The position numbers and the translations under genes are program-made. The notes under the pieces are model-generated. The model did no database searches. It was not told the origin of the DNA and was given only the letters and a program-made list of their open reading frames with translations. From the NCBI GenBank assembly GCA_037349105.1, contig JAYJMM010000036.1:6112001-6176000 (forward strand): a stretch of 64,000 nt of DNA. Direction: 5' to 3'. The DNA comes from Limnomonas spitsbergensis (lineage: Eukaryota; Chlorophyta; Chlorophyceae; Chlamydomonadales). Below are positions 1-24,372 of this stretch, one piece after another; positions within the stretch are counted from its first letter, which is position 1; each line of letters starts with the position of its first letter.

Positions 1-25
1 GGGCTCGAACCCTCGACCACAAGAT
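1..25 (-). tRNA. Permuted tRNA-Lys(CUU), copy 1, partial (3' half only)
   Basis: The window opens inside the 3' half. The minus strand reads from A38 at position 25 through the anticodon 3' strand, variable loop, T stem and T loop TTCGAGC. The acceptor 3' strand and the whole 5' half lie outside the window. The visible part matches the intact copies. Confidence 0.85.
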
Positions 26-160
26 TTCACGCTCATGACGGTCTCAAACCTGCTCACCAGCCAATCATAGCATCGTAAACAGTCTCTTTAAAGCCACGGA
101 CACGACTGCTCTTGATCACTCTTTCTCCAAGACGACGGCAGAATCGGCGACCGAGCCAAG

Positions 161-1381
161 GTGCGGCGAGACACACCGCTTTCACGGAACCCTCTTAAGG
201 ACAAGGCCTCCGGGGAGATGACCCTGCAACACGCCTTGCGTCGTTTAAAAGCAAACGGCTGGCCATATATACGAGGGCGATTTCAGGAGATCTCTCCCCT
301 CGGCCAAACGACCTGCTCCAACACGCGTCGTTGTTATTTCGTCCGGGTGGAACGCTTGTCCTTGGCTGAAGCCGGCGTCCGGAACCACGCCAAAAGCTTA
401 ATGGCACCCACTTGAGGGTGTTCGACAGCCGCAACCCATAGGAGCTCGCCGTTCACCGACAGCGTTGGCCCACTTTTCCGGGGGCGCGTCAATTAGGCCA
501 CCGGGCCCAACCGACCGATCGCCCAAGTCGACCGCACCGACCAAGCTCCTCGTCACCACCCTTCGTGGATGGCGCTTCCCGCCATCGATTTGCTGTATGC
601 GAGACTTGAAGGGCCTCGCTCCTACGGTCTTGTGAGGTTTCTCCTCGTTGTTCCGCTTGGGTAGTTCATGCTTCTTGCCATGCCTATAGGTTGGCTTGTT
701 TCAAGACGCGACTCGAAGAATCGGCGAGCCCATTTCCGGCAAAGCCTACTGAAATTGGGGCTTGACATGATTGTGCCCCTGGTACACGCCGGGGTTATTT
801 TACATGCTCGTGCAAAGTCCCGGTTCATGTCTTTCCTTCAAATAACTGATTGCGACTCACATAGCAACTCGGAGATGAACGTTGACCATTAAGTCTATAG
901 TCAAAGTCGTGGACTACTCGTGGTTGTGCCATATCATGTTCTTTAGAGTCGAGTTTTGACGCATGTCTTTCAAAGATTTATATTGTATGTGATCGCTTCT
1001 CAACTTCTCATTTTTTGATCACATGCATTTGGATCTCGGTTGTAGTCGAAGAAGGGCCGGTCGAAGACTCGAAAACATCTGCTATAGACAAGTATCTTAC
1101 GTTTTTCTGGTATCAACCTCAATCACACGGACTATGCAGCATGTGGAGACGCAAAAAGGACACCTGCCACATTGCCGTTTCTACGCCTCCGTCGGTAACT
1201 GACAATAAACCTTTGCCGTCGTGCTCATCATAATCTTGGGGCTGACTAAACTACGGGTAGATAAAATCGTCCCACACTATCGGCCTTTTTAAGAACCTCT
1301 GCCTGGCCAGGGCCGGCTACAAAGAGAACCTCGCATGTCAAAAACGGTTACTTGGCAGACCCTCGGTGCTTCCCTTGTGCA
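161..1381. other. Unit spacer without a recognisable gene (representative, unit 1)
   Basis: This stretch, repeated in every unit, contains several overlapping short ORFs on both strands (68-84 codons). Their changes between units alter residues freely, and the TATA deletion in units 26-30 shifts frame in the overlapping pair. I see no known domain, no splice-site-supported exon chain and no other RNA gene. A short perfect hairpin (CCCCGG, TACACG loop, CCGGGG in later units) is the only compact structure noted. Its equivalent in unit 2 is at 2912-2929. Confidence 0.7.
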
Positions 1382-1874
1382 CGGTAAATTCGCACTTTGA
1401 CATGTCCCCAACATGCATACTGAATATGTTACTAGTTAAATATTTTGGGGGTGAGCGGGTACATGCGCGATAGAATAACAATTAGCAAAAAGTGTGTGCG
1501 GCCGGTCAGTAACAGGCCCAACCAACTATTTTGTCAGTGCGCGGGGTATTTTCTGTACCTACCATCAAAAACTGATTAGGACTGATTTATGCCACATCCA
1601 TTCACATATTGCTGACCGTGTACTTTTCTTTCAAGCATCAAACTAGGTTTTTAAACGAGTCGACAATACGTAGTGGTTGCAAGAGTTGCGCAAAGTAAAT
1701 TTTACGACTCACAGAAAGTGTTGTTAAATTGCTTGTTACGAACTTGCTTCGCAACATAACAAGCAACTTGTTTTATAACATACACGTGCACAAAGTAGAG
1801 TACTTTTTGCTTGCGCAACAAATTTGATCTATTTGTCATCCAAAGGGGTGCGCGGACTCTATTCGATTTCACGG
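1382..1874. mobile_element. Old decayed transposon of the family inserted in unit 11 (representative)
   Basis: The left end CGGTAAATTCGCACTTTGAC resembles the terminal CCGTAAAACGCCTTTTAC at 24185. The right end GGGGTGCGCGGAC, then TTTCACGG and TA, resembles the 24185-24864 right end GGGGTGCGCGGAC, then TTTTACGG and TA. Interior blocks also align in order: AATTAAAT, GGGGTGCGCGG, CAT, TGCGCG, then CCCAACCAACTATTTTG near 1529 against CCCAAACAACTATTTTG at 24298. Units 26-30 match the family best (GGGTGCGCGGG). It is about 493 bp, present in all units, and has no coding capacity. Confidence 0.55.
1731..1764. repeat. Inverted repeat, potential hairpin (representative)
   Basis: GCTTGTTA and TAACAAGC flank an inner TTGC-TTC-GCAA hairpin, giving an imperfect cruciform-like structure within the transposon relic. 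It is unchanged in almost all units. Function is unknown; it could be a remnant of the element's internal palindromes. Confidence 0.5.
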
Positions 1875-1973
1875 TACAACTATGGTTGAGTCTGTGCGGA
1901 CAAGTCGCGATGTACATATCAAGCTCCTAGCACGAGAGGTTGATAGGCTCCCTCTTAAATATATGAGTGCATG

Positions 1974-2015
1974 TAAGATTCTTGCGCTCTACCATCCCAC
2001 CCTACCTCACTGGGC
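1974..2015 (-). pseudogene. Decayed second tRNA-Lys 5' half (representative, unit 1)
   Basis: The minus strand starts GCCCAGT, which can pair with ATTGGGC, and ends GAGCGCAAGA-ATCTTA followed by CATGC, matching the functional 5' half and its trailer. The D-arm region is replaced by a G-rich run and is about 5 nt longer (42 nt versus 37), so the D stem and A box are gone. It sits 66 bp downstream of the functional 5' half in every unit. It looks like a duplicated 5' half that decayed. The anticodon letters CTT and the helix-forming trailer survive. Confidence 0.65.
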
Positions 2016-2059
2016 ACACTTGGAGGTTTGCATGCTCCTTGTGCATCCTATTCACCGCT

Positions 2060-2063
2060 AAAA
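2060..2063 (-). terminator. Pol III T-run terminator after the 5' half (representative)
   Basis: The minus strand has CATTTTAG 18 nt beyond A37. A four-T run is the minimal Pol III terminator in many eukaryotes. It sits at the same place (236 to 233 bp before each anchor) in regular units and is kept in the decayed units. It would give a short trailer holding the CACGC helix strand. Confidence 0.65.
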
Positions 2064-2099
2064 TGTTTAGGTGCGTGCGTGTAAGAGTCTTGCGCTCTG

Positions 2100-2111
2100 C
2101 CAACTGAGCTA
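2100..2111 (-). promoter_or_regulatory. A box of permuted tRNA-Lys (representative)
   Basis: The minus strand reads TAGCTCAGTTGG, matching the TRGCNNAGYNGG consensus. It starts 25 bp downstream of the B box. It is almost invariant across the array except for copy 24 (GC for TT) and a C-to-T change in copies 28-30. Confidence 0.8.
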
Positions 2112-2135
2112 ACCGGGCAGTCTTCGCCCAATGAG

Positions 2136-2146
2136 GGGCTCGAACC
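2136..2146 (-). promoter_or_regulatory. B box of permuted tRNA-Lys (representative)
   Basis: The minus strand reads GGTTCGAGCCC, close to the Pol III B box consensus GGTTCGANTCC. Because the halves are swapped it lies upstream of the A box, the reverse of a normal tRNA gene. Copies 8, 9, 16-18, 20-23, 25 and 26 have substitutions inside it. Confidence 0.8.
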
Positions 2147-2221
2147 CTCGCCCACAAGATTTCACGCTCATGACGGTCTCAGACCTGCTCACCAGCCATT
2201 CATAGCTTCGTAAACAGTCTC

Positions 2222-2227
2222 TTTAAA
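2222..2227 (-). promoter_or_regulatory. TATA-like element upstream of permuted tRNA (representative)
   Basis: TTTAAA lies 62 bp upstream of A38 on the minus strand and is conserved in every unit, including units with surrounding changes (TATTTAAAG near 50737, TTTTTAAAG near 63563). With normal TATA spacing, transcription would begin about 30 nt before the 3' half. Its role is inferred; no experiment is visible here. Confidence 0.4.
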
Positions 2228-2911
2228 GCCACGGACACGACTGCTCTTGATCACTCTTTCTCCAAGACGACGGCAGAATCGGCGACCGAGCCAAGGTGCG
2301 GCGAGACACACCGCTTTCACGGAACCCTCTTAAGGACAAGGCCTCCGGGGAGATGACCCTGCAACACGCCTTGCGTCGTTTAAAAGCAAACGGCTGGCCA
2401 TATATAGGAGGGCGATTTCAGGAGACCTCTCCCCTCGGCCAAACGACCTGCTCCAACACGCGTCGTTGTTATTTCGTCCGGGTGGAACGCTTGTCCTTGG
2501 CTGAGGCCGGCGTCCGGAACCACGCCAAAAGCTCAATGGCACCCACTTGAGGGTGTTCGACAGCCGCAACCCATAGGAGCTCGCCGTTCACCGACATCGT
2601 TGGCCCACTTTTCCGGGGGCGCGTCAATTAGGCCACCGGGCCCAACCGACCGATCGCCCAAGTCGACCGCACCGACCAAGCTCCTCGTCACCACCCTTCG
2701 TGGATGGCGCTTCCCGCCATCGATTTGCTGTATGCGAGACTTGAAGGGCCTCGCTCCTACGGTCTTGTGAGGTTTCTCCTCGTTGTTCCGCTTGGGTAGT
2801 TCATGCTTCTTGCCATGCCTATAGGTTGGCTTGTTTCAAGACGCGACTCGAAGAATCGGCGAGCCCATTTCCGGCAAAGCCTACTGAAATTGGGGCTTGA
2901 CATGATTGTGC

Positions 2912-2929
2912 CCCCGGTACACGCCGGGG
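2912..2929. repeat. Short perfect hairpin CCCCGG/CCGGGG (representative)
   Basis: A 6-bp stem with loop TACACG lies in the gene-free part of the unit. Units 1, 3, 4 and 5 have CCCTGG, which keeps a wobble pair. Later units change the loop (TAAACG near 34342, TATACG near 47165 and 49300) without breaking the stem. Role unknown. Confidence 0.4.
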
Positions 2930-4216
2930 TTATTTTACATGCTCGTGCAAAGTCCCGGTTCATGTCTTTCCTTCAAATAACTGATTGCGACTCACATAGC
3001 GACTCGGAGATGAACGTTGACCATTAAGTCTATAGTCAAAGTCGTGGACTACTCGTGGTTGTGCCATATCATGTTCTTTAGAGTCGAGTTTTGACGCATG
3101 TCTTTCAAAGATTTATATTGTATGTGATCGCTTCTCAACTTCTCATTTTTTGATCACATGCATTTGGATCTCGGTTGTAGTCGAAGAAGGGCCGGTCGAA
3201 GACTCGAAAACATCTGCTATAGACAAGTATCTTACGTTTTTCTGGTATCAACCTCAATCACACGGACTATGCAGCATGTGGAGACGCAAAAAGGACACCT
3301 GCCACATTGCCGTTTCTACGCCTCCGTCGGTAACTGACAATAAACCTTTGCCGTCGTGCTCATCATAATCTTGGGGCTGACTAAACTACGGGTAGATAAA
3401 ATCGTCCCACACTATCGGCCTTTTTAAGAACCTCTGCCTGGCCAGGGCCGGCTACAAAGAGAACCTCGCATGTCAAAAACGGTTACTTGGCAGACCCTCG
3501 GTGCTTCCCTTGTGCACGGTAAATTCGCACTTTGACATGTCCCCAACATGCATACTGAATATGTTACTAGTTAAATATTTTGGGGGTGAGCGGGTACATG
3601 CGCGATAGAATAACAATTAGCAAAAAGTGTGTGCGGCCGGTCAGTAACAGGCCCAACCAACTATTTTGTCAGTGCGCGGGGTATTTTCTGTACCTACCAT
3701 CAAAAACTGATTAGGACTGATTTATGCCACATCCATTCACATATTGCTGACCGTGTACTTTTCTTTCAAGCATCAAACTAGGTTTTTAAACGAGTCGACA
3801 ATACGTAGTGGTTGCAAGAGTTGCGCAAAGTAAATTTTACGACTCACAGAAAGTGTTGTTAAATTGCTTGTTACGAACTTGCTTCGCAACATAACAAGCA
3901 ACTTGTTTTATAACATACACGTGCACAAAGTAGAGTACTTTTTGCTTGCGCAACAAATTTGATCTATTTGTCATCCAAAGGGGTGCGCGGACTCTATTCG
4001 ATTTCACGGTACAACTATGGTTGAGTCTGTGCGGACAAGTCGCGATGTACATATCAAGCTCCTAGCACGAGAGGTTGATAGGCTCCCTCTTAAATATATG
4101 AGTGCATGTAAGATTCTTGCGCTCTACCATCCCACCCTACCTCACTGGGCACACTTGGAGGTTTGCATGCTCCTTGTGCATCCTATTCACCGCTAAAATG
4201 TTTAGGTGCGTGCGTG

Positions 4217-4295
4217 TAAGAGTCTTGCGCTCTGCCAACTGAGCTAACCGGGCAGTCTTCGCCCAATGAGGGGCTCGAACCCTCGACCACAAGAT
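4217..4295 (-). tRNA. Circularly permuted tRNA-Lys(CUU), copy 3, intact
   Basis: The consensus sequence of the array: all stems paired, anticodon CTT, 6-nt joint AAGACT, break at 37/38, and leader GCGTG and trailer CACGC complementary. Confidence 0.92.
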
Positions 4296-6351
4296 TTCAC
4301 GCTCATGACGGTCTCAAACCTGCTCACCAGCCAATCATAGCATCGTAAACAGTCTCTTTAAAGCCACGGACACGACTGCTCTTGATCACTCTTTCTCCAA
4401 GACGACGGCAGAATCGGCGACCGAGCCAAGGTGCGGCGAGACACACCGCTTTCACGGAACCCTCTTAAGGACAAGGCCTCCGGGGAGATGACCCTGCAAC
4501 ACGCCTTGCGTCGTTTAAAAGCAAACGGCTGGCCATATATACGAGGGCGATTTCAGGAGATCTCTCCCCTCGGCCAAACGACCTGCTCCAACACGCGTCG
4601 TTGTTATTTCGTCCGGGTGGAACGCTTGTCCTTGGCTGAGGCCGGCGTCCGGAACCACGCCAAAAGCTCAATGGCACCCACTTGAGGGTGTTCGACAGCC
4701 GCAACCCATAGGAGCTCGCCGTTCACCGACAGCGTTGGCCCACTTTTCCGGGGGCGCGTCAATTAGGCCACCGGGCCCAACCGACCGATCGCCCAAGTCG
4801 ACCGCACCGACCAAGCTCCTCGTCACCACCCTTCGTGGATGGCGCTTCCCGCCATCGATTTGCTGTATGCGAGACTTGAAGGGCCTCGCTCCTACGGTCT
4901 TGTGAGGTTTCTCCTCGTTGTTCCGCTTGGGTAGTTCATGCTTCTTGCCATGCCTATAGGTTGGCTTGTTTCAAGACGCGACTCGAAGAATCGGCGAGCC
5001 CATTTCCGGCAAAGCCTACTGAAATTGGGGCTTGACATGATTGTGCCCCTGGTACACGCCGGGGTTATTTTACATGCTCGTGCAAAGTCCCGGTTCATGT
5101 CTTTCCTTCAAATAACTGATTGCGACTCACATAGCAACTCGGAGATGAACGTTGACCATTAAGTCTATAGTCAAAGTCGTGGACTACTCGTGGTTGTGCC
5201 ATATCATGTTCTTTAGAGTCGAGTTTTGACGCATGTCTTTCAAAGATTTATATTGTATGTGATCGCTTCTCAACTTCTCATTTTTTGATCACATGCATTT
5301 GGATCTCGGTTGTAGTCGAAGAAGGGCCGGTCGAAGACTCGAAAACATCTGCTATAGACAAGTATCTTACGTTTTTCTGGTATCAACCTCAATCACACGG
5401 ACTATGCAGCATGTGGAGACGCAAAAAGGACACCTGCCACATTGCCGTTTCTACGCCTCCGTCGGTAACTGACAATCAACCTTTGCCGTCGTGCTCATCA
5501 TAATCTTGGGGCTGACTAAACTACGGGTAGATAAAATCGTCCCACACTATCGGCCTTTTTAAGAACCTCTGCCTGGCCAGGGCCGGCTACAAAGAGAACC
5601 TCGCATGTCAAAAACGGTTACTTGGCAGACCCTCGGTGCTTCCCTTGTGCACGGTAAATTCGCACTTTGACATGTCCCCAACATGCATACTGAATATGTT
5701 ACTAGTTAAATATTTTGGGGGTGAGCGGGTACATGCGCGATAGAATAACAATTAGCAAAAAGTGTGTGCGGCCGGTCAGTAACAGGCCCAACCAACTATT
5801 TTGTCAGTGCGCGGGGTATTTTCTGTACCTACCATCAAAAACTGATTAGGACTGATTTATGCCACATCCATTCACATATTGCTGACCGTGTACTTTTCTT
5901 TCAAGCATCAAACTAGGTTTTTAAATGAGTCGACAATACGTAGTGGTTGCAAGAGTTGCGCAAAGTAAATTTTACGACTCACAGAAAGTGTTGTTAAATT
6001 GCTTGTTACGAACTTGCTTCGCAACATAACAAGCAACTTGTTTTATAACATACACGTGCACAAAGTAGAGTACTTTTTGCTTGCGCAACAAATTTGATCT
6101 ATTTGTCATCCAAAGGGGTGCGCGGACTCTATTCGATTTCACGGTACAACTATGGTTGAGTCTGTGCGGACAAGTCGCGATGTACATATCAAGCTCCTAG
6201 CACGAGAGGTTGATAGGCTCCCTCTTAAATATATGAGTGCATGTAAGATTCTTGCGCTCTACCATCCCACCCTACCTCACTGGGCACACTTGGAGGTTTG
6301 CATGCTCCTTGTGCATCCTATTCACCGCTAAAATGTTTAGGTGCGTGCGTG

Positions 6352-6430
6352 TAAGAGTCTTGCGCTCTGCCAACTGAGCTAACCGGGCAGTCTTCGCCCA
6401 ATGAGGGGCTCGAACCCTCGACCACAAGAT
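6352..6430 (-). tRNA. Circularly permuted tRNA-Lys(CUU), copy 4, intact
   Basis: Identical to consensus copy 3 across both halves and the joint. All arms are paired and the B box GGTTCGAGCCC is intact. Confidence 0.92.
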
Positions 6431-8486
6431 TTCACGCTCATGACGGTCTCAAACCTGCTCACCAGCCAATCATAGCTTCGTAAACAGTCTCTTTAAAACC
6501 ACGGACACGACTGCTCTTGATCACTCTTTCTCCAAGACGACGGCAGAATCGGCGACCGAGCCAAGGTGCGGCGAGACACACCGCTTTCACGGAACCCTCT
6601 TAAGGACAAGGCCTCCGGGGAGATGACCCTGCAACACGCCTTGCGTCGTTTAAAAGCAAACGGCTGGCCATATATAGGAGGGCGATTTCAGGAGACCTCT
6701 CCCCTCGGCCAAACGACCTGCTCCAACACGCGTCGTTGTTATTTCGTCCGGGTGGAACGCTTGTCCTTGGCTGAGGCCGGCGTCCGGAACCACGCCAAAA
6801 GCTCAATGGCACCCACTTGAGGGTGTTCGACAGCCGCAACCCATAGGAGCTCGCCGTTCACCGACAGCGTTGGCCCACTTTTCCGGGGGCGCGTCAATTA
6901 GGCCACCGGGCCCAACCGACCGATCGCCCAAGTCGACCGCACCGACCAAGCTCCTCGTCACCACCCTTCGTGGATGGCGCTTCCCGCCATCGATTTGCTG
7001 TATGCGAGACTTGAAGGGCCTCGCTCCTACGGTCTTGTGAGGTTTCTCCTCGTTGTTCCGCTTGGGTAGTTCATGCTTCTTGCCATGCCTATAGGTTGGC
7101 TTGTTTCAAGACGCGACTCGAAGAATCGGCGAGCCCATTTCCGGCAAAGCCTACTGAAATTGGGGCTTGACATGATTGTGCCCCTGGTACACGCCGGGGT
7201 TATTTTACATGCTCGTGCAAAGTCCCGGTTCATGTCTTTCCTTCAAATAACTGATTGCGACTCACATAGCAACTCGGAGATGAACGTTGACCATTAAGTC
7301 TATAGTCAAAGTCGTGGACTACTCGTGGTTGTGCCATATCATGTTCTTTAGAGTCGAGTTTTGACGCATGTCTTTCAAAGATTTATATTGTATGTGATCG
7401 CTTCTCAACTTCTCATTTTTTGATCACATGCATTTGGATCTCGGTTGTAGTCGAAGAAGGGCCGGTCGAAGACTCGAAAACATCTGCTATAGACAAGTAT
7501 CTTACGTTTTTCTGGTATCAACCTCAATCACACGGACTATGCAGCATGTGGAGACGCAAAAAGGACACCTGCCACATTGCCGTTTCTACGCCTCCGTCGG
7601 TAACTGACAATAAACCTTTGCCGTCGTGCTCATCATAATCTTGGGGCTGACTAAACTACGGGTAGATAAAATCGTCCCACACTATCGGCCTTTTTAAGAA
7701 CCTCTGCCTGGCCAGGGCCGGCTACAAAGAGAACCTCGCATGTCAAAAACGGTTACTTGGCAGACCTTCGGTGCTTCCCTTGTGCACGGTAAATTCGCAC
7801 TTTGACATGTCCCCAACATGCATACTGAATATGTTACTAGTTAAATATTTTGGGGGTGAGCGGGTACATGCGCGATAGAATAACAATTAGCAAAAAGTGT
7901 GTGCGGCCGGTCAGTAACAGGCCCAACCAACTATTTTGTCAGTGCGCGGGGTATTTTCTGTACCTACCATCAAAAACTGATTAGGACTGATTTATGCCAC
8001 ATCCATTCACATATTGCTGACCGTGTACTTTTCTTTCAAGCATCAAACTAGGTTTTTAAATGAGTCGACAATACGTAGTGGTTGCAAGAGTTGCGCAAAG
8101 TAAATTTTACGACTCACAGAAAGTGTTGTTAAATTGCTTGTTACGAACTTGCTTCGCAACATAACAAGCAACTTGTTTTATAACATACACGTGCACAAAG
8201 TAGAGTACTTTTTGCTTGCGCAACAAATTTGATCTATTTGTCATCCAAAGGGGTGCGCGGACTCTATTCGATTTCACGGTACAACTATGGTTGAGTCTGT
8301 GCGGACAAGTCGCGATGTACATATCAAGCTCCTAGCACGAGAGGTTGATAGGCTCCCTCTTAAATATATGAGTGCATGTAAGATTCTTGCGCTCTACCAT
8401 CCCACCCTACCTCACTGGGCACACTTGGAGGTTTGCATGCTCCTTGTGCATCCTATTCACCGCTAAAATGTTTAGGTGCGTGCGTG

Positions 8487-8565
8487 TAAGAGTCTTGCGC
8501 TCTGCCAACTGAGCTAACCGGGCAGTCTTCGCCCAATGAGGGGCTCGAACCCTCGACCACAAGAT
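8487..8565 (-). tRNA. Circularly permuted tRNA-Lys(CUU), copy 5, intact
   Basis: Identical to consensus copy 3 in both halves and in the AAGACT joint. Confidence 0.92.
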
Positions 8566-10621
8566 TTCACGCTCATGACGGTCTCAAACCTGCGCACCAG
8601 CCAATCATAGCTTCGTAAACAGTCTCTTTAAAGCCACGGACACGACTGCTCTTGATCACTCTTTCTCCAAGACGACGGCAGAATCGGCGACCGAGCCAAG
8701 GTGCGGCGAGACACACCGCTTTCACGGAACCCTCTTAAGGACAAGGCCTCCGGGGAGATGACCCTGCAACACGCCTTGCGTCGTTTAAAAGCAAACGGCT
8801 GGCCATATATAGGAGGGCGATTTCAGGAGACCTCTCCCCTCGGCCAAACGACCTGCTCCAACACGCGTCGTTGTTATTTCGTCCGGGTGGAACGCTTGTC
8901 CTTGGCTGAGGCCGGCGTCCGGAACCACGCCAAAAGCTCAATGGCACCCACTTGAGGGTGTTCGACAGCCGCAACCCATAGGAGCTCGCCGTTCACCGAC
9001 ATCGTTGGCCCACTTTTCCGGGGGCGCGTCAATTAGGCCACCGGGCCCAACCGACCGATCGCCCAAGTCGACCGCACCGACCAAGCTCCTCGTCACCACC
9101 CTTCGTGGATGGCGCTTCCCGCCATCGATTTGCTGTATGCGAGACTTGAAGGGCCTCGCTCCTACGGTCTTGTGAGGTTTCTCCTCGTTGTTCCGCTTGG
9201 GTAGTTCATGCTTCTTGCCATGCCTATAGGTTGGCTTGTTTCAAGACGCGACTCGAAGAATCGGCGAGCCCATTTCCGGCAAAGCCTACTGAAATTGGGG
9301 CTTGACATGATTGTGCCCCTGGTACACGCCGGGGTTATTTTACATGCTCGTGCAAAGTCCCGGTTCATGTCTTTCCTTCAAATAACTGATTGCGACTCAC
9401 ATAGCAACTCGGAGATGAACGTTGACCATTAAGTCTATAGTCAAAGTCGTGGACTACTCGTGGTTGTGCCATATCATGTTCTTTAGAGTCGAGTTTTGAC
9501 GCATGTCTTTCAAAGATTTATATTGTATGTGATCGCTTCTCAACTTCTCATTTTTTGATCACATGCATTTGGATCTCGGTTGTAGTCGAAGAAGGGCCGG
9601 TCGAAGACTCGAAAACATCTGCTATAGACAAGTATCTTACGTTTTTCTGGTATCAACCTCAATCACACGGACTATGCAGCATGTGGAGACGCAAAAAGGA
9701 CACCTGCCACATTGCCGTTTCTACGCCTCCGTCGGTAACTGACAATAAACCTTTGCCGTCGTGCTCATCATAATCTTGGGGCTGACTAAACTACGGGTAG
9801 ATAAAATCGTCCCACACTATCGGCCTTTTTAAGAACCTCTGCCTGGCCAGGGCCGGCTACAAAGAGAACCTCGCATGTCAAAAACGGTTACTTGGCAGAC
9901 CCTCGGTGCTTCCCTTGTGCACGGTAAATTCGCACTTTGACATGTCCCCAACATGCATACTGAATATGTTACTAGTTAAATATTTTGGGGGTGAGCGGGT
10001 ACATGCGCGATAGAATAACAATTAGCAAAAAGTGTGTGCGGCCGGTCAGTAACAGGCCCAACCAACTATTTTGTCAGTGCGCGGGGTATTTTCTGTACCT
10101 ACCATCAAAAACTGATTAGGACTGATTTATGCCACATCCATTCACATATTGCTGACCGTGTACTTTTCTTTCAAGCATCAAACTAGGTTTTTAAATGAGT
10201 CGACAATACGTAGTGGTTGCAAGAGTTGCGCAAAGTAAATTTTACGACTCACAGAAAGTGTTGTTAAATTGCTTGTTACGAACTTGCTTCGCAACATAAC
10301 AAGCAACTTGTTTTATAACATACACGTGCACAAAGTAGAGTACTTTTTGCTTGCGCAACAAATTTGATCTATTTGTCATCCAAAGGGGTGCGCGGACTCT
10401 ATTCGATTTCACGGTACAACTATGGTTGAGTCTGTGCGGACAAGTCGCGATGTACATATCAAGCTCCTAGCACGAGAGGTTGATAGGCTCCCTCTTAAAT
10501 ATATGAGTGCATGTAAGATTCTTGCGCTCTACCATCCCACCCTACCTCACTGGGCACACTTGGAGGTTTGCATGCTCCTTGTGCATCCTATTCACCGCTA
10601 AAATATTTAGGTGCGTGCGTG

Positions 10622-10700
10622 TAAGAGTCTTGCGCTCTGCCAACTGAGCTAACCGGGCAGTCTTCGCCCAATGAGGGGCTCGAACCCTCGACCACAAGAT
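10622..10700 (-). tRNA. Circularly permuted tRNA-Lys(CUU), copy 6, intact
   Basis: Both halves and joint match the consensus. A substitution just past the terminator region (ATATTTTAG on the minus strand) leaves the TTTT run intact. Confidence 0.92.
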
Positions 10701-12756
10701 TTCACGCTCATGACGGTCTCAAACCTGCGCACCAGCCAATCATAGCTTCGTAAACAGTCTCTTTAAAGCCACGGACACGACTGCTCTTGATCACTCTTTC
10801 TCCAAGACGACGGCAGAATCGGCGACCGAGCCAAGGTGCGGCGAGACACACCGCTTTCACGGAACCCTCTTAAGGACAAGGCCTCCGGGGAGATGACCCT
10901 GCAACACGCCTTGCGTCGTTTAAAAGCAAACGGCTGGCCATATATAGGAGGGCGATTTCAGGAGACCTCTCCCCTCGGCCAAACGACCTGCTCCAACACG
11001 CGTCGTTGTTATTTCGTCCGGGTGGAACGCTTGTCCTTGGCTGAGGCCGGCGTCCGGAACCACGCCAAAAGCTCAATGGCACCCACTTGAGGGTGTTCGA
11101 CAGCCGCAACCCATAGGAGCTCGCCGTTCACCGACAGCGTTGGCCCACTTTTCCGGGGGCGCGTCAATTAGGCCACCGGGCCCAACCGACCGATCGCCCA
11201 AGTCGACCGCACCGACCAAGCTCCTCGTCACCACCCTTCGTGGATGGCGCTTCCCGCCATCGATTTGCTGTATGCGAGACTTGAAGGGCCTCGCTCCTAC
11301 GGTCTTGTGAGGTTTCTCCTCGTTGTTCCGCTTGTGTAGTTCATGCTTCTTGCCATGCCTATAGGTTGGCTTGTTTCAAGACGCGACTCGAAGAATCGGC
11401 GAGCCCATTTCCGGCAAAGCCTACTGAAATTGGGGCTTGACATGATTGTGCCCCCGGTACACGCCGGGGTTATTTTACATGCTCGTGCAAAGTCCCGGTT
11501 CATGTCTTTCCTTCAAATAACTGATTGCGACTCACATAGCGACTCGGAGATGAACGTTGACCATTAAGTCTATAGTCAAAGTCGTGGACTACTCGTGGTT
11601 GTGCCATATCATGTTCTTTAGAGTCGAGTTTTGACGCATGTCTTTCAAAGATTTATATTGTATGTGATCGCTTCTCAACTTCTCATTTTTTGATCACATG
11701 CATTTGGATCTCGGTTGTAGTCGAAGAAGGGCCGGTCGAAGACTCGAAAGCATCTGCTATAGACAAGTATCTTACGTTTTTCTGGTATCAACCTCAATCA
11801 CACGGACTATGCAGCATGTGGAGACGCAAAAAGGACACCTGCCACATTGCCGTTTCTACGCCTCCGTCGGTAACTGACAATAAACCTTTGCCGTCGTGCT
11901 CATCATAATCTTGGGGCTGACTAAACTACGGGTAGATAAAATCGTCCCACACTATCGGCCTTTTTAAGAACCTCTGCCTGGCCAGGGCCGGCTACAAAGA
12001 GAACCTCGCATGTCAAAAACGGTTACTTGGCAGACCCTCGGTGCTTCCCTTGTGCACGGTAAATTCGCACTTTGACATGTCCCCAACATGCATACTGAAT
12101 ATGTTACTAGTTAAATATTTTGGGGGTGAGCGGGTACATGCGCGATAGAATAACAATTAGCAAAAAGTGTGTGCGGCCGGTCAGTAACAGGCCCAACCAA
12201 CTATTTTGTCAGTGCGCGGGGTATTTTCTGTACCTACCATCAAAAACTGATTAGGACTGATTTATGCCACATCCATTCACATATTGCTGACCGTGTACTT
12301 TTCTTTCAAGCATCAAACTAGGTTTTTAAATGAGTCGACAATACGTAGTGATTGCAAGAGTTGCGCAAAGTAAATTTTACGACTCACAGAAAGTGTTGTT
12401 AAATTGCTTGTTACGAACTTGCTTCGCAACATAACAAGCAACTTGTTTTATAACATACACGTGCACAAAGTAGAGTACTTTTTGCTTGCGCAACAAATTT
12501 GATCTATTTGTCATCCAAAGGGGTGCGCGGACTCTATTCGATTTCACGGTACAACTATGGTTGAGTCTGTGCGGACAAGTCGCGATGTACATATCAAGCT
12601 CCTAGCACGAGAGGTTGATAGGCTCCCTCTTAAATATATGAGTGCATGTAAGATTCTTGCGCTCTACCATCCCACTCTACCTCACTGGGCACACTTGGAG
12701 GTTTGCATGCTCCTAGTGCATCCTATTCACCGCTAAAATGTTTAGGTGCGTGCGTG

Positions 12757-12835
12757 TAAGAGTCTTGCGCTCTGCCAACTGAGCTAACCGGGCAGTCTTC
12801 GCCCATTGAGGTGCTCGAACCCTCGACCACAAGAT
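12757..12835 (-). tRNA. Permuted tRNA-Lys(CUU), copy 7, two stem mismatches
   Basis: U67 is changed to A, giving a G6/A67 mismatch in the acceptor stem. C61 is changed to A, breaking the G53-C61 pair that closes the T loop. The anticodon arm and 5' half are unchanged. It is probably weak or non-functional. Confidence 0.8.
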
Positions 12836-14891
12836 TTCACGCTCATGACGGTCTCAAACCTGCGCACCAGCCAATCATAGCTTCGTAAACAGTCTCTTTA
12901 AAGCCACGGACACGACTGCTCTTGATCACTCTTTCTCCAAGACGACGGCAGAATCGGCGACCGAGCCAAGGTGCGGCGAGACACACCGCTTTCACGGAAC
13001 CCTCTTAAGGACAAGGCCTCCGGGGAGATGACCCTGCAACACGCCTTGCGTCGTTTAAAAGCAAACGGCTGGCCATATATACGAGGGCGATTTCAGGAGA
13101 CCTCTCCCCTCGGCCAAACGACCTGCTCCAACACGCGTCGTTGTTATTTCGTCCGGGTGGAACGCTTGTCCTTGGCTGAGGCCGGCGTCCGGAACCACGC
13201 CAAAAGCTCAATGGCACCCACTTGAGGGTGTTCGACAGCCGCAACCCATAGGAGCTCGCCGTTCACCGACAGCGTTGGCCCACTTTTCCGGGGGCGCGTC
13301 AATTAGGCCACCGGGCCCAACCGACCGATCGCCCAAGTCGACCGCACCGACCAAGCTCCTCGTCACCACCCTTCGTGGATGGCGCTTCCCGCCATCGATT
13401 TGCTGTATGCGAGACTTGAAGGGCCTCGCTCCTACGGTCTTGTGAGGTTTCTCCTCGTTGTTCCGCTTGGGTAGTTCATGCTTCTTGCCATGCCTATAGG
13501 TTGGCTTGTTTCAAGACGCGACTCGAAGAATCGGCGAGCCCATTTCCGGCAAAGCCTACTGAAATTGGGGCTTGACATGATTGTGCCCCCGGTACACGCC
13601 GGGGTTATTTTACATGCTCGTGCAAAGTCCCGGTTCATGTCTTTCCTTCAAATAACTGATTGCGACTCACATAGCGACTCGGAGATGAACGTTGACCATT
13701 AAGTCTATAGTCAAAGTCGTGGACTACTCGTGGTTGTGCCATATCATGTTCTTTAGAGTCGAGTTTTGACGCATGTCTTTCAAAGATTTATATTGTATGT
13801 GATCGCTTCTCAACTTCTCATTTTTTGATCACATGCATTTGGATCTCGGTTGTAGTCGAAGAAGGGCCGGTGGAAGACTCGAAAACATCTGCTATAGACA
13901 AGTATCTTACGTTTTTCTGGTATCAACCTCAATCACACGGACTATGCAGCATGTGGAGACGCAAAAAGGACACCTGCCACATTGCCGTTCCTACGCCTCC
14001 GTCGGTAACTGACAATAAACCTTTGCCGTCGTGCTCATCATAATCTTGGGGCTGACTAAACTACGGGTAGATAAAATCGTCCCACACTATCGGCCTTTTT
14101 AAGAACCTCTGCCTGGCCAGGGCCGGCTACAAAGAGAACCTCGCATGTCAAAAACGGTTACTTGGCAGACCCTCGGTGCTTCCCTTGTGCACGGTAAATT
14201 CGCACTTTGACATGTCCCCAACATGCATACTGAATATGTTACTAGTTAAATATTTTGGGGGTGAGCGGGTACATGCGCGATAGAATAACAATTAGCAAAA
14301 AGTGTGTGCGGCCGGTCAGTAACAGGCCCAACCAACTATTTTGTCAGTGCGCGGGGTATTTTCTGTACCTACCATCAAAAACTGATTAGGACTGATTTAT
14401 GCCACATCCATTCACATATTGCTGACCGTGTACTTTTCTTTCAAGCATCAAACTAGGTTTTTAAATGAGTCGACAATACGTAGTGGTTGCAAGAGTTGCG
14501 CAAAGTAAATTTTACGACTCACAGAAAGTGTTGTTAAATTGCTTGTTACGAACTTGCTTCGCAACATAACAAGCAACTTGTTTTATAACATACACGTGCA
14601 CAAAGTAGAGTACTTTTTGCTTGCGCAACAAATTTGATCTATTTGTCATCCAAAGGGGTGCGCGGACTCTATTCGATTTCACGGTACAACTATGGTTGAG
14701 TCTGTGCGGACAAGTCGCGATGTACATATCAAGCTCCTAGCACGAGAGGTTGATAGGCTCCCTCTTAAATATATGAGTGCATGTAAGATTCTTGCGCTCT
14801 ACCATCCCACCCTACCTCACTGGGCACACTTGGAGGTTTGCATGCTCCTTGTGCATCCTATTCACCGCTAAAATGTTTAGGTGCGTGCGTG

Positions 14892-14970
14892 TAAGAGTCT
14901 TGCGCTCTGCCAACTGAGCTAACCGGGCAGTCTTCGCCCAATGAGGGGCCCGAACCCTCGACCACAAGAT
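14892..14970 (-). tRNA. Permuted tRNA-Lys(CUU), copy 8, A58G in T loop
   Basis: The T loop reads TTCGGGC instead of TTCGAGC. A58 is near-invariant in tRNAs (it forms the T54-A58 reverse Hoogsteen pair) and is also a B-box position, so both folding and transcription could suffer. Otherwise consensus. Confidence 0.82.
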
Positions 14971-17026
14971 TTCACGCTCATGACGGTCTCAAACCTGCGC
15001 ACCAGCCAATCATAGCTTCGTAAACAGTCTCTTTAAAGCCACGGACACGACTGCTCTTGATCACTCTTTCTCCAAGACGACGGCAGAATCGGCGACCGAG
15101 CCAAGGTGCGGCGAGACACACCGCTTTCACGGAACCCTCTTAAGGACAAGGCCTCCGGGGAGATGACCCTGCAACACGCCTTGCGTCGTTTAAAAGCAAA
15201 CGGCTGGCCATATATAGGAGGGCGATTTCAGGAGACCTCTCCCCTCGGCCAAACGACCTGCTCCAACACGCGTCGTTGTTATTTCGTCCGGGTGGAACGC
15301 TTGTCCTTGGCTGAGGCCGGCGTCCGGAACCACGCCAAAAGCTCAATGGCACCCACTTGAGGGTGTTCGACAGCCGCAACCCATAGGAGCTCGCCGTTCA
15401 CCGACAGCGTTGGCCCACTTTTCCGGGGGCGCGTCAATTAGGCCACCGGGCCCAACCGACCGATCGCCCAAGTCGACCGCACCGACCAAGCTCCTCGTCA
15501 CCACCCTTCGTGGATGGCGCTTCCCGCCATCGATTTGCTGTATGCGAGACTTGAAGGGCCTCGCTCCTACGGTCTTGTGAGGTTTCTCCTCGTTGTTCCG
15601 CTTGGGTAGTTCATGCTTCTTGCCATGCCTATAGGTTGGCTTGTTTCAAGACGCGACTCGAAGAATCGGCGAGCCCATTTCCGGCAAAGCCTACTGAAAT
15701 TGGGGCTTGACATGATTGTGCCCCCGGTACACGCCGGGGTTATTTTACATGCTCGTGCAAAGTCCCGGTTCATGTCTTTCCTTCAAATAACTGATTGCGA
15801 CTCACATAGCGACTCGGAGATGAACGTTGACCATTAAGTCTATAGTCAAAGTCGTGGACTACTCGTGGTTGTGCCATATCATGTTCTTTAGAGTCGAGTT
15901 TTGACGCATGTCTTTCAAAGATTTATATTGTATGTGATCGCTTCTCAACTTCTCATTTTTTGATCACATGCATTTGGATCTCGGTTGTAGTCGAAGAAGG
16001 GCCGGTCGAAGACTCGAAAACATCTGCTATAGACAAGTATCTTACGTTTTTCTGGTATCAACCTCAATCACACGGACTATGCAGCATGTGGAGACGCAAA
16101 AAGGACACCTGCCACATTGCCGTTTCTACGCCTCCGTCGGTAACTGACAATAAACCTTTGCCGTCGTGCTCATCATAATCTTGGGGCTGACTAAACTACG
16201 GGTAGATAAAATCGTCCCACACTATCGGCCTTTTTAAGAACCTCTGCCTGGCCAGGGCCGGCTACAAAGAGAACCTCGCATGTCAAAAACGGTTACTTGG
16301 CAGACCCTCGGTGCTTCCCTTGTGCACGGTAAATTCGCACTTTGACATGTCCCCAACATGCATACTGAATATGTTACTAGTTAAATATTTTGGGGGTGAG
16401 CGGGTACATGCGCGATAGAATAACAATTAGCAAAAAGTGTGTGCGGCCGGTCAGTAACAGGCCCAACCAACTATTTTGTCAGTGCGCGGGGTATTTTCTG
16501 TACCTACCATCAAAAACTGATTAGGACTGATTTATGCCACATCCATTCACATATTGCTGACCGTGTACTTTTCTTTCAAGCATCAAACTAGGTTTTTAAA
16601 TGAGTCGACAATACGTAGTGGTTGCAAGAGTTGCGCAAAGTAAATTTTACGACTCACAGAAAGTGTTGTTAAATTGCTTGTTACGAACTTGCTTCGCAAC
16701 ATAACAAGCAACTTGTTTTATAACATACACGTGCACAAAGTAGAGTACTTTTTGCTTGCGCAACAAATTTGATCTATTTGTCATCCAAAGGGGTGCGCGG
16801 ACTCTATTCGATTTCACGGTACAACTATGGTTGAGTCTGTGCGGACAAGTCGCGATGTACATATCAAGCTCCTAGCACGAGAGGTTGATAGGCTCCCTCT
16901 TAAATATATGAGTGCATGTAAGATTCTTGCGCTCTACCATCCCACCCTACCTCACTGGGCACACTTGGAGGTTTGCATGCTCCTTGTGCATCCTATTCAC
17001 CGCTAAAATGTTTAGGTGCGTGCGTG

Positions 17027-17105
17027 TAAGAGTCTTGCGCTCTGCCAACTGAGCTAACCGGGCAGTCTTCGCCCAATGAGGGGCCCGAACCCTCGACCAC
17101 AAGAT
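17027..17105 (-). tRNA. Permuted tRNA-Lys(CUU), copy 9, A58G in T loop
   Basis: Same single A58G change as copy 8 in the adjacent unit, pointing to a duplicated or converted neighbour. The rest is consensus. Confidence 0.82.
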
Positions 17106-19161
17106 TTCACGCTCATGACGGTCTCAAACCTGCGCACCAGCCAATCATAGCTTCGTAAACAGTCTCTTTAAAGCCACGGACACGACTGCTCTTGATCACT
17201 CTTTCTCCAAGACGACGGCAGAATCGGCGACCGAGCCAAGGTGCGGCGAGACACACCGCTTTCACGGAACCCTCTTAAGGACAAGGCCTCCGGGGAGATG
17301 ACCCTGCAACACGCCTTGCGTCGTTTAAAAGCAAACGGCTGGCCATATATAGGAGGGCGATTTCAGGAGACCTCTCCCCTCGGCCAAACGACCTGCTCCA
17401 ACACGCGTCGTTGTTATTTTGTCCGGGTGGAACGCTTGTCCTTGGCTGAGGCCGGCGTCCGGAACCACGCCAAAAGCTCAATGGCACCCACTTGAGGGTG
17501 TTCGACAGCCGCAACCCATAGGAGCTCGCCGTTCACCGACAGCGTTGGCCCACTTTTCCGGGGGCGCGTCAATTAGGCCACCGGGCCCAACCGACCGATC
17601 GCCCAAGTCGACCGCACCGACCAAGCTCCTCGTCACCACCCTTCGTGGATGGCGCTTCCCGCCATCGATTTGCTGTATGCGAGACTTGAAGGGCCTCGCT
17701 CCTACGGTCTTGTGAGGTTTCTCCTCGTTGTTCCGCTTGGGTAGTTCATGCTTCTTGCCATGCCTATAGGTTGGCTTGTTTCAAGACGCGACTCGAAGAA
17801 TCGGCGAGCCCATTTCCGGCAAAGCCTACTGAAATTGGGGCTTGACATGATTGTGCCCCCGGTACACGCCGGGGTTATTTTACATGCTCGTGCAAAGTCC
17901 CGGTTCATGTCTTTCCTTCAAATAACTGATTGCGACTCACATAGCGACTCGGAGATGAACGTTGACCATTAAGTCTATAGTCAAAGTCGTGGACTACTCG
18001 TGGTTGTGCCATATCATGTTCTTTATAGTCGAGTTTTGACGCATGTCTTTCAAAGATTTATATTGTATGTGATCGCTTCTCAACTTCTCATTTTTTGATC
18101 ACATGCATTTGGATCTCGGTTGTAGTCGAAGAAGGGCCGGTCGAAGACTCCAAAGCATCTGCTATAGACAAGTATCTTACGTTTTTCTGGTATCAACCTC
18201 AATCACACGGACTATGCAGCATGTGGAGACGCAAAAAGGACACCTGCCACATTGCCGTTTCTACGCCTCCGTCGGTAACTGACAATAAACCTTTGCCGTC
18301 GTGCTCATCATAATCTTGGGGCTGACTAAACTACGGGTAGATAAAATCGTCCCACACTATCGGCCTTTTTAAGAACCTCTGCCTGGCCAGGGCCGGCTAC
18401 AAAGAGAACCTCGCATGTCAAAAACGGTTACTTGGCAGACCCTCGGTGCTTCCCTTGTGCACGGTAAATTCGCACTTTGACATGTCCCCAACATGCATAC
18501 TGAATATGTTACTAGTTAAATATTTTGGGGGTGAGCGGGTACATGCGCGATAGAATAACAATTAGCAAAAAGTGTGTGCGGCCGGTCAGTAACAGGCCCA
18601 ACCAACTATTTTGTCAGTGCGCGGGGTATTTTCTGTACCTACCATCAAAAACTGATTAGGACTGATTTATGCCACATCCATTCACATATTGCTGACCGTG
18701 TACTTTTCTTTCAAGCATCAAACTAGGTTTTTAAATGAGTCGACAATACGTAGTGGTTGCAAGAGTTGCGCAAAGTAAATTTTACGACTCACAGAAAGTG
18801 TTGTTAAATTGCTTGTTACGAACTTGCTTCGCAACATAACAAGCAACTTGTTTTATAACATACACGCGCACAAAGTAGAGTACTTTTTGCTTGCGCAACA
18901 AATTTGATCTATTTGTCATCCAAAGGGGTGCGCGGACTCTATTCGATTTCACGGTACAACTATGGTTGAGTCTGTGCGGACAAGTCGCGATGTACATATC
19001 AAGCTCCTAGCACGAGAGGTTGATAGGCTCCCTCTTAAATATATGAGTGCATGTAAGATTCTTGCGCTCTACCATCCCACTCTACCTCACTGGGCACACT
19101 TGGAGGTTTGCATGCTCCTTGTGCATCCTATTCACCGCTAAAATGTTTAGGTGCGTGCGTG

Positions 19162-19240
19162 TAAGAGTCTTGCGCTCTGCCAACTGAGCTAACCGGGCAG
19201 TCTTCGCCCAATGAGGGGCTCGAACCCTCGACCACAAGAT
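19162..19240 (-). tRNA. Circularly permuted tRNA-Lys(CUU), copy 10, intact
   Basis: Consensus in both halves and joint, with T loop TTCGAGC restored relative to copies 8 and 9. Confidence 0.92.
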
Positions 19241-21296
19241 TTCACGCTCATGACGGTCTCAAACCTGCGCACCAGCCAATCATAGCTTCGTAAACAGTCT
19301 CTTTAAAGCCACGGACACGACTGCTCTTGATCACTCTTTCTCCAAGACGACGGCAGAATCGGCGACCGAGCCAAGGTGCGGCGAGACACACCGCTTTCAC
19401 GGAACCCTCTTAAGGACAAGGCCTCCGGGGAGATGACCCTGCAACACGCCTTGCGTCGTTTAAAAGCAAACGGCTGGCCATATATAGGAGGGCGATTTCA
19501 GGAGACCTCTCCCCTCGGCCAAACGACCTGCTCCAACACGCGTCGTTGTTATTTCGTCCGGGTGGAACGCTTGTCCTTGGCTGAGGCCGGCGTCCGGAAC
19601 CACGCCAAAAGCTCAATGGCACCCACTTGAGGGTGTTCGACAGCCGCAACCCATAGGAGCTCGCCGTTCACCGACAGCGTTGGCCCACTTTTCCGGGGGC
19701 GCGTCAATTAGGCCACCGGGCCCAACCGACCGATCGCCCAAGTCGACCGCACCGACCAAGCTCCTCGTCACCACCCTTCGTGGATGGCGCTTCCCGCCAT
19801 CGATTTGCTGTATGCGAGACTTGAAGGGCCTCGCTCCTACGGTCTTGTGAGGTTTCTCCTCGTTGTTCCGCTTGGGTAGTTCATGCTTCTTGCCATGCCT
19901 ATAGGTTGGCTTGTTTCAAGACGCGACTCGAAGAATCGGCGAGCCCATTTCCGGCAAAGCCTACTGAAATTGGGGCTTGACATGATTGTGCCCCCGGTAC
20001 ACGCCGGGGTTATTTTACAAGCTCGTGCAAAGTCCCGGTTCATGTCTTTCCTTCAAATAACTGATTGCGACTCACATAGCGACTCGGAGATGAACGTTGA
20101 CCATTAAGTCTATAGTCAAAGTCGTGGACTACTCGTGGTTGTGCCATATCATGTTCTTTATAGTCGAGTTTTGACGCATGTCTTTCAAAGATTTATATTG
20201 TATGTGATCGCTTCTCAACTTCTCATTTTTTGATCACATGCATTTGGATCTCGGTTGTAGTCGAAGAAGGGCCGGTGGAAGACTCGAAAACATCTGCTAT
20301 AGACAAGTATCTTACGTTTTTCTGGTATCAACCTCAATCACACGGACTATGCAGCATGTGGAGACGCAAAAAGGACACCTGCCACATTGCCGTTTCTACG
20401 CCTCCGTCGGTAACTGACAATAAACCTTTGCCGTCGTGCTCATCATAATCTTGGGGCTGACTAAACTACGGGTAGATAAAATCGTCCCACACTATCGGCC
20501 TTTTTAAGAACCTCTGCCTGGCCAGGGCCGGCTACAAAGAGAACCTCGCATGTCAAAAACGGTTACTTGGCAGACCCTCGGTGCTTCCCTTGTGCACGGT
20601 AAATTCGCACTTTGACATGTCCCCAACATGCATACTGAATATGTTACTAGTTAAATATTTTGGGGGTGAGCGGGTACATGCGCGATAGAATAACAATTAG
20701 CAAAAAGTGTGTGCGGCCGGTCAGTAACAGGCCCAACCAACTATTTTGTCAGTGCGCGGGGTATTTTCTGTACCTACCATCAAAAACTGATTAGGACTGA
20801 TTTATGCCACATCCATTCACATATTGCTGACCGTGTACTTTTCTTTCAAGCATCAAACTAGGTTTTTAAATGAGTCGACAATACGTAGTGGTTGCAAGAG
20901 TTGCGCAAAGTAAATTTTACGACTCACAGAAAGTGTTGTTAAATTGCTTGTTACGAACTTGCTTCGCAACATAACAAGCAACTTGTTTTATAACATACAC
21001 GTGCACAAAGTAGAGTACTTTTTGCTTGCGCAACAAATTTGATCTATTTGTCATCCAAAGGGGTGCGCGGACTCTATTCGATTTCACGGTACAACTATGG
21101 TTGAGTCTGTGCGGACAAGTCGCGATGTACATATCAAGCTCCTAGCACGAGAGGTTGATAGGCTCCCTCTTAAATATATGAGTGCATGTAAGATTCTTGC
21201 GCTCTACCATCCCACCCTACCTCACTGGGCACACTTGGAGGTTTGCATGCTCCTTGTGCATCCTATTCACCGCTAAAATGTTTAGGTGCGTGCGTG

Positions 21297-21375
21297 TAAG
21301 AGTCTTGCGCTCTGCCAACTGAGCTAACCGGGCAGTCTTCGCCCAATGAGGGGCTCGAACCCTCGACCACAAGAT
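21297..21375 (-). tRNA. Circularly permuted tRNA-Lys(CUU), copy 11, intact
   Basis: Consensus sequence. The unit that follows this gene carries the two transposon insertions, which do not touch any tRNA half. Confidence 0.92.
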
Positions 21376-23080: not shown

Positions 23081-23155
23081 CCCGGGGGGCTCAGTGGTAC
23101 TACGTAACTTAGCAGTCCACCCTGAGGTCTGCAGTTCGAATCCTGTCAATGTTCA
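23081..23155 (+). other. tRNA-like A box/B box module in transposon copy A
   Basis: GGCTCAGTGGTA at 23088-23099 resembles an A box, and AGTTCGAATCC at 23133-23143 is one base from a perfect B box. The spacing is typical of a tRNA gene. Acceptor and T stems do not pair well, so it is a tRNA-derived relic or promoter rather than a tRNA. It may let Pol III transcribe the element. Confidence 0.55.
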
Positions 23156-23301
23156 GCACTTTCAGCCAGTACAGCAATACTTAGTTAACACCCTCACAGT
23201 CAGCAAAAGTCATAATACGGTAGTCAAAATTCATCCACCTGAGGTATACAGTCAGTAGACGTCAATATAATCATCCTCCTCCGGTACACGGTCAACATAG
23301 T

Positions 23302-23395
23302 CATCCTCCTCCTCCTCCTCCTCCTCCGTCTCCTCCTCCTCCTCCTCCTCCCACTCCCCCTCCTCCTCCTCCTCCTCCACCTGCTCCTCTTGCTC
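23302..23395. repeat. (TCC)n microsatellite inside transposon copy A
   Basis: A run of TCC/CTC triplets interrupted by a few variants. On the minus strand it gives a glutamate-rich open frame, a by-product of the repeat and not a credible gene. The tract is absent from copy B and accounts for much of the length difference. Confidence 0.85.
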
Positions 23396-23451
23396 CTGAT
23401 CCTCCAGATCCTCCATCGGACGTCGAACCACGGACGTCGAATCAAACAGTC

Positions 23452-24358: not shown

Positions 24359-24372
24359 GCGCGCTAGCGCGC
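24359..24372. repeat. Perfect palindrome GCGCGCTAGCGCGC in copy B
   Basis: Counterpart of the palindrome at 23452-23465, conserved between the two element copies although neighbouring bases differ. Confidence 0.7.

Follow-up and report, generated by a model that had tools for sequence, protein, structure and literature searches.

Permuted tRNA-Lys genes at dispersed loci and in a tandem array in the green alga Limnomonas spitsbergensis

In a stretch of Limnomonas spitsbergensis DNA, a tRNA-Lys(CUU) is encoded at positions 2082-2160 with its two halves in swapped order, which raises the question of whether such an arrangement is a functional gene or an accident of one satellite repeat. The stretch analysed, referred to here as the window, comprises 64,000 nucleotides (contig C36:6112001-6176000) of a 260-Mb assembly in 124 contigs. 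A sequence-only reading had placed the 3′ half before the 5′ half on the minus strand with 6 nt between them, and its coordinates proved exact; the 3′ half indeed lies upstream of the 5′ half, on the same strand and across a short spacer. Put back in the usual order, the halves form a complete cloverleaf of 73 nt carrying the conserved residues, and the details claimed for it (break at 37/38, anticodon CTT, T54, T55, C56, A58, G73 and every stem paired) agree, with two G-T pairs among the paired bases of the acceptor stem. One cloverleaf check of the reordered halves took in the 25 of 29 window copies that fitted its pattern. The elements of this copy and its surroundings are as follows.

2164..2244, minus strand: relic of a tRNA-Ser gene, in the same place as an intact tRNA-Ser(AGA) elsewhere (alignment)
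2161..2167, minus strand: leader end GCGTGAA, with a G at -3 of the junction; its GCGTG is predicted to pair with the trailer CACGC (RNA folding)
2125..2160, minus strand: 3′ half of tRNA-Lys(CUU), positions 38-73 (sequence)
2119..2124, minus strand: intervening AAGACT, joining the tRNA 3′ end to the 5′ end (sequence)
2082..2118, minus strand: 5′ half of tRNA-Lys(CUU), positions 1-37, with anticodon CTT (sequence)
2077..2081, minus strand: trailer start CACGC, predicted pairing partner of the leader (RNA folding)
2060..2063, minus strand: TTTT, putative RNA polymerase III terminator, +19 to +22 after the 5′ half (sequence)
1974..2015, minus strand: additional, decayed 5′ half that lies downstream of the permuted gene and has TGGTAGAGCGCAAGAATCTTA at its end (alignment score 34, against 18 for the next best in the array unit)

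Neither linear ARAGORN nor an Rfam gathering scan found a tRNA in the window, and ARAGORN gave the reordered tRNA-Lys(CUU) a score of 122. As a control for chance, the window was shuffled once by dinucleotides, and none of the 127,835 segments circularised from it was called as a tRNA. Of 99,835 circularised segments from 50 kb of real flank, 21 were; 19 of these calls were an array copy at the edge of locus L011, and the other two were an odd tRNA-Gly (L018) and a call with no assigned identity (L019). We then scored the loci with a permuted covariance model, for which nine non-Lys tRNAs from this genome were rotated at the anticodon loop and given a rotated cloverleaf. This check, which the sequence-only reading had proposed, returned 70.2 bits for the copy at 2082-2160, far above the controls in this genome (32 bits for the best of 57 ordinary-tRNA loci and 36 bits for a neighbouring Cys-Tyr pair, L122), and 49-75 bits for all 29 whole window copies. 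Clusters of tRNAs on viral contigs reached up to 54 bits with the same model (26 of 37 viral loci scored), so that the covariance score alone is no proof; the genome context is.

That context is, in the first place, a tandem array. Its units, mostly 2135 bp long, run from about 6064514 to 6176103 on contig C36 and end 49 kb from the contig end. The window lies within this array and holds 29 whole permuted cores.

1..64000, minus strand: part of a 111.6-kb, 52-unit tandem array, G000:C36:6064514-6176103 (sequence comparison)
2161..4295, minus strand: one 2135-bp array unit, starting with the 3′ half at 4295 (sequence comparison)
Low coordinates 4217, 6352, 8487, 10622, 12757, 14892, 17027, 19162 and 21297, minus strand: whole permuted copies
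Low coordinates 24987, 27093, 29228, 31369, 33504, 35639, 37778 and 39914, minus strand: whole permuted copies
Low coordinates 42053, 44189, 46328, 48463, 50597, 52739, 54878 and 57027, minus strand: whole permuted copies
Low coordinates 59176, 61311 and 63430, minus strand: copies with an 8-nt loss
1-25, minus strand: copy cut by the window edge

The claim that every unit carries the gene was nearly right: 49 of the 52 array units were called tRNA-Lys(CTT) when circularised and three were not. The three right-most units have an 8-nt loss that spans the boundary between spacer and 5′ half. Among the 40 of 54 candidates scored, a 401-bp segment of the array unit had matches in the array only. 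Two inserts in array units, at window positions 22771-23640 and 24185-24864, have TACCGTAAAAC-like and GTTTTACGGTA-like inverted ends and a tRNA-like stretch inside, and look like MITE-type elements. To the right of the array we observed long simple-repeat tracts (L012:1262-3371, L012:7958-9999 and the end of L015). The last 600 bases of the contig are simple repeat and L014-L017 have a G+C content of 0.66-0.67, and most of the sequence between the array and the contig end may thus be repetitive; CCCTAAA telomere repeats stand at the other end of the contig. No Pfam family was found in four open reading frames of the array flanks, and a plasmid search gave no match. Elsewhere in the genome, the light-harvesting family has 111 matches; for one 84-residue fragment of this family the best single-domain PDB matches were chlorophyll a/b-binding proteins, the top row overall being the multi-domain LHCI chain 9vfj. 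Together with the telomere repeats, these matches speak for a phototroph, most likely from the green lineage and perhaps a host with a secondary green plastid.

Beyond the array, the Lys(CUU) 5′ half recurs at dispersed loci. Its 64 occurrences in the genome divide into 52 in the array and 12 on nine other contigs, namely C19, C25 (two), C62, C65, C82 (two), C109, C110, C112 (two) and C120. A 3′ half lies beside 62 of them; the two 5′ halves lacking a 3′-half match belong to an array copy in which one base is deleted and to a truncated dispersed copy at C82. Each of the 12 dispersed loci was read, and each has the permuted order. The 73-nt tRNA is identical in nine of them, differs at one base at C110 and at three at C120, and at C82:24601 carries a single change and lacks the end of the 3′ half. 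Among the 11 untruncated loci the spacer measures 5 nt in seven and 6 nt in four, and its letters differ. The flanks are unrelated around the gene except at the C25 pair and C110, which have an upstream tRNA-Ser in common, and a few short repeats recur farther out. The permuted covariance model found every one of the 12, ten of them at 70-75 bits, the variant L063 at 57 bits and the truncated L057 at 33 bits.

These loci bear on a different reading of the array, in which the halves stand in ordinary order across an intron of about 2 kb. Within a tandem array this reading and the permuted one have identical letters. It is nevertheless very improbable, and we rejected it: the dispersed loci are permuted without exception; no second 5′ or 3′ half was found within about 700-800 bases on either side of them, apart from the second C25 gene 2.3 kb away; a T-run directly follows the 5′ half; and the array breaks off within a unit rather than at an intact gene. 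Such a T-run is compatible with the permuted order alone, because the polymerase would stop before any later 3′ half.

A permuted gene might also be mimicked by neighbouring ordinary tRNAs or by assembly errors. Viral contigs illustrate how this can happen, since 30 of 37 matches to a B-box-to-A-box pattern lay in two adjacent ordinary tRNAs and the other seven touched one; four of these seven gave a circularised call (three with no assigned identity and one tRNA-Met, from at most 144 segments each). At the 12 dispersed loci, however, no ordinary tRNA-Lys was called, only three tRNA-Ser, and the permuted order recurs between many flanks that are largely unrelated, as well as in two isoacceptors. 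We therefore rejected mimicry and assembly error, whose probability we regard as negligible.

The viral collection itself yielded no intact permuted tRNA-Lys among the 37 pattern matches. One match, L149:6446-6522 on the minus strand of IMGVR_UViG_3300042476_000244, scored 54 bits with the permuted tRNA model and has a 7-bp acceptor pairing; it is flanked by an ordinary tRNA-Val and tRNA-Pro, in a region that has 36 tRNA matches in Rfam, and its 3′ piece seems to have an anticodon arm of its own. It is either two decayed tRNAs fused together or a permuted viral tRNA. Another of the 37, on the L156 contig, gave a circularised tRNA-Met(cat) call beside an ordinary tRNA-Met, probably by chance, as many segment ends were tried.

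Does the permutation extend to the second lysine isoacceptor? A Lys(UUU) 5′-half pattern had five matches, all identical stretches, against three for the reversed control. The one locus read is permuted and gives a 72-nt tRNA with the spacer ACCATG, an ARAGORN score of 125, 70.5 bits with the permuted covariance model, a G at -3 and TTTT at +13. All five 5′-half loci match this permuted gene across the spacer and both halves at 95-100% identity, and a search with the whole gene added a sixth locus at 90% identity and two more in part. Together with the dispersed Lys(CUU) loci, the permuted Lys(UUU) gene is, at the level of sequence, the strongest evidence for a functional arrangement as opposed to an accident of one satellite.

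The sequence-only reading had also proposed looking for an ordinary tRNA-Lys(CUU) in the genome, and pattern searches found none. A pattern for unbroken tRNA-Lys of either anticodon gave 16 matches against 10 for its reversed control; four of the 16 were tRNA-Thr genes, and at the other 12 loci neither ARAGORN nor Rfam called a tRNA. Ordinary tRNA-Lys of either anticodon was thus not found by pattern, to which a gene with an unusual arm or intron position could be invisible. A tRNA family search had 57 matches over the cut-off (63 of 8791 candidates scored), of which ARAGORN named 40, none of them Lys, left 13 with no assigned anticodon and did not call four. Taken with the dispersed and array Lys(CUU) copies and the Lys(UUU) results, every tRNA-Lys locus detected is permuted. 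Permutation is not general in the genome, since Ala, Thr, Trp, Phe, Arg, Tyr and other tRNAs have ordinary genes; at the two of eight tRNA-Tyr 5′-half loci that were read as a control, the halves stand in ordinary order with an intron, and both have a G at -3.

Other tRNA-like repeats were encountered along the way. Thirteen dispersed tRNA-like sequences (L098-L100 and L102-L111) share a similar tail, TGAGTGACTGGTAAAACCTCTCGGCG or close to it, and are probably a tRNA-derived SINE. Three tRNA-Tyr 5′ halves, at G000:C120:3440541, 3444927 and 3449313, are spaced by exactly 4386 bp, and the middle one has an ordinary tRNA-Cys just upstream (L122); this stretch is possibly another small tandem repeat with a tRNA pair.

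We next considered whether the permuted loci carry the signals that transcription and processing would need. A T-run begins at +7 to +13 after the 5′ half in all 12 dispersed loci and at +19 in the array (the chance of TTTT within 21 bases is 0.08-0.10), and there is none in the spacer. A G stands at -3 of the junction at 14 of 14 loci (the 12 dispersed ones, the array and the Lys(UUU) locus read), a base that we would expect to pair with position 32, as in the A-I pair of introns in eukaryotic tRNAs. A pair of this name is mentioned in PMC4090602. In RNA folding the array precursor alone forms a cloverleaf in which the spacer is the acceptor loop. The predicted GCGTG/CACGC pairing of array leader and trailer holds for leaders of up to 30 nt, and at 40 nt another fold of the leader competes. 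Looking for a bulge-helix-bulge or relaxed motif at the junction, we counted helices of 5 bp at the C25 pair and in the array, 7 bp, including G-T, at C110 and 2-5 bp elsewhere, and leader-trailer pairing near the junction of Lys(UUU) is clear energetically. Across the 14 loci, own leader-trailer pairs were weakly better than mismatched ones (p = 0.016 with 14-nt arms, 0.028 with 10-nt arms and 0.14 with 18-nt arms), and a helix test gave p = 0.037, or 0.052 when one of the two near-identical C25 loci was left out.

With the halves in swapped order, tRNA-Lys is probably made through a small circular RNA. From the route reviewed for Cyanidioschyzon merolae (C. merolae) and green algae we infer how transcription, enzymes and circle would operate here. 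RNA polymerase III would transcribe leader, 3′ half, 5-6 nt of spacer, 5′ half and trailer, stopping at the T-run just after the 5′ half; the precursor would fold into a cloverleaf, with the short spacer closing the acceptor stem; leader and trailer would then be cut off at 37/38 by the tRNA-splicing endonuclease, as in intron excision; ligation would yield a 78-79-nt circle; and RNase P and tRNase Z would remove the spacer, after which CCA would be added. The steps of splicing endonuclease, circle ligation, RNase P, tRNase Z and CCA addition are those described from C. merolae and green-algal work in PMC3978253 (in part).

How such a gene would be transcribed is less obvious, as the swap of its halves reverses the order of its internal A and B boxes. 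Three of the 12 dispersed loci (both at C25, and C110) have an intact tRNA-Ser(AGA) whose end lies six bases upstream of the permuted gene, and on sequence grounds this upstream tRNA-Ser probably supplies the polymerase III promoter at some loci. The array has a relic of this gene in the same place. Its alignment score is 52 (57 with the array consensus); 1000 shuffled versions of the 110-nt leader scored at most 45, and the next part of the unit that does not overlap it scored 35. The B-box-like stretch of the relic reads GGTCTGAGACC in the unit at 2164..2244, GGTTTGAGACC in most units and GGTTCGAGACC in three other window units; the idea that this stretch is a decayed 3′ half was dropped, since the tRNA-Ser relic fits better. 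Of the nine dispersed loci with no tRNA-Ser, four have TATA in the interval from -80 to -45 (background 0.05). In the interval from -50 to -25, three carry TGAAAG and three GTCATGA, a single locus being counted under both; these motifs were picked by eye from the same sequences, which makes their p-values optimistic. Our hypothesis is that the upstream tRNA-Ser and the TATA-like and other motifs are two ways of supplying an external promoter.

The relic also suggests where the array came from: a single pair of tRNA-Ser and permuted tRNA-Lys appears to have been amplified in tandem, and its Ser half has decayed. Two such pairs stand 2.3 kb apart at C25. Whether the array still contributes tRNA is a separate matter, because it could be a non-functional satellite of tRNA pseudogenes, the tRNA being made by the dispersed permuted loci. 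We consider this unlikely, though it deserves serious weight. The variable sites within the array (counted without unit 19, which holds an insertion) amount to 18 of 36 in the 3′ half (unit positions 1-36), 10 of 37 in the 5′ half, six of which are affected by the single 8-nt loss shared by three units, 22 of 77 in the tRNA-Ser relic and 22 of 301 in the other flanks (Fisher p ~1e-9 for the 3′ half). The 3′ half is thus more variable than the flanks, and single array copies are without visible selection. A pseudogene satellite would account for this variability, which in some copies reaches T54, T55, C56, G57 and A58, as well as for the 8-nt loss in three of the 52 copies, the more distant T-run and the damaged A-box region of the Ser relic. 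Against it, 22 of the 52 copies are identical to the conserved dispersed tRNA, 49 are still called, and the array has a clear predicted leader-trailer helix. The variability is moreover strongest in the stretch that would be transcribed, the Ser relic and both halves. Transcription-associated mutation has been reported for tRNA genes and may be the cause of this excess, a pattern that argues for transcription of the array to the extent that the link holds.

Altogether, we conclude with considerable confidence that these are functional permuted nuclear tRNA-Lys genes of the 37/38 type, or type II, which would be expressed by way of a circle, that they have apparently replaced the ordinary genes, and that the array appears to be an amplified Ser-Lys pair. 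What was observed in favour of this conclusion is the gene order, the complete reordered tRNAs, the many loci with largely unrelated flanks, the T-run, the G at -3, leader-trailer pairing at some loci and the absence of ordinary tRNA-Lys from the pattern searches. A bolder version, to which we lean only slightly, is that all cytosolic lysine is decoded via tRNAs made through circular RNA: permuted genes would have displaced every ordinary one for both codons, spread to at least 12 sites and been amplified like ribosomal DNA, with a tRNA-Ser or its relic as a borrowed promoter.

Several consequences would follow. The 12 dispersed Lys(CUU) loci, the array and Lys(UUU) offer natural replicates for learning which signals processing needs, and the Ser-Lys loci suggest how a gene with inverted A and B boxes gets transcribed. 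Annotators should be warned that linear ARAGORN calls no lysine tRNA at the loci to which it was applied. For C. merolae and a nucleomorph, genome compaction has been suggested as a possible explanation of permuted genes (PMC3978253, in part); a 260-Mb genome in which the whole tRNA set of one amino acid is seemingly permuted, and then multiplied, speaks against it as a general cause.

The following comparisons draw on parts of the sources cited. Permuted tRNAs are known from C. merolae, Ostreococcus, Micromonas, nucleomorphs and Thermofilum (PMC3978253, PMC4494063). The range given by the sequence-only reading, a few algae, one nucleomorph and one archaeon, is widened by Auxenochlorella (PMC12636532) and a second nucleomorph (PMC4494063). 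Permuted tRNA genes have so far been described as scattered genes, and in the literature on them, represented mostly by titles and abstracts, we found no tandem array of permuted genes, no permuted Lys(CUU) and no whole multi-copy set.

C. merolae (Soma 2007 in PMC3978253) shares with L. spitsbergensis the permuted order, a T-run after the 5′ half and a permuted tRNA-Lys(TTT), the only Lys entry in Table 1 of PMC3978253. That gene is broken at 59/60 and has a 38-bp spacer, whereas the genes described here are broken at 37/38 and have spacers of 5-6 nt. A TATA-like sequence is reported upstream in C. merolae, and we found one at four of the nine loci lacking tRNA-Ser; the C. merolae genome, at 16.5 Mb, is far smaller than the 260 Mb here (PMC3978253). 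Auxenochlorella, also a green alga, has 5′ and 3′ halves in reverse order as well (PMC12636532). Ordinary tRNA genes with a 37/38 intron, such as tRNA-Tyr in this genome, have the same break and the G at -3, but their halves stand in normal order with the intron between them.

A close likeness is to the type II genes of prasinophytes (Ostreococcus and Micromonas) and the chlorarachniophyte nucleomorph (Maruyama 2010 in PMC3978253), which have the same 37/38 junction and a short spacer, with a range of 1-74 in the table and 5 in the nucleomorph, against 5-6 nt here. The tRNA-Cys of O. lucimarinus is reported to have an extra 5′ half downstream (PMC3978253), as the array unit has a decayed one. 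The prasinophyte and nucleomorph type II lists in the part of PMC3978253 consulted are without Lys, whereas both Lys isoacceptors are permuted in L. spitsbergensis, which further differs from these lineages in its many dispersed copies, its 52-unit array and the tRNA-Ser directly upstream at three loci.
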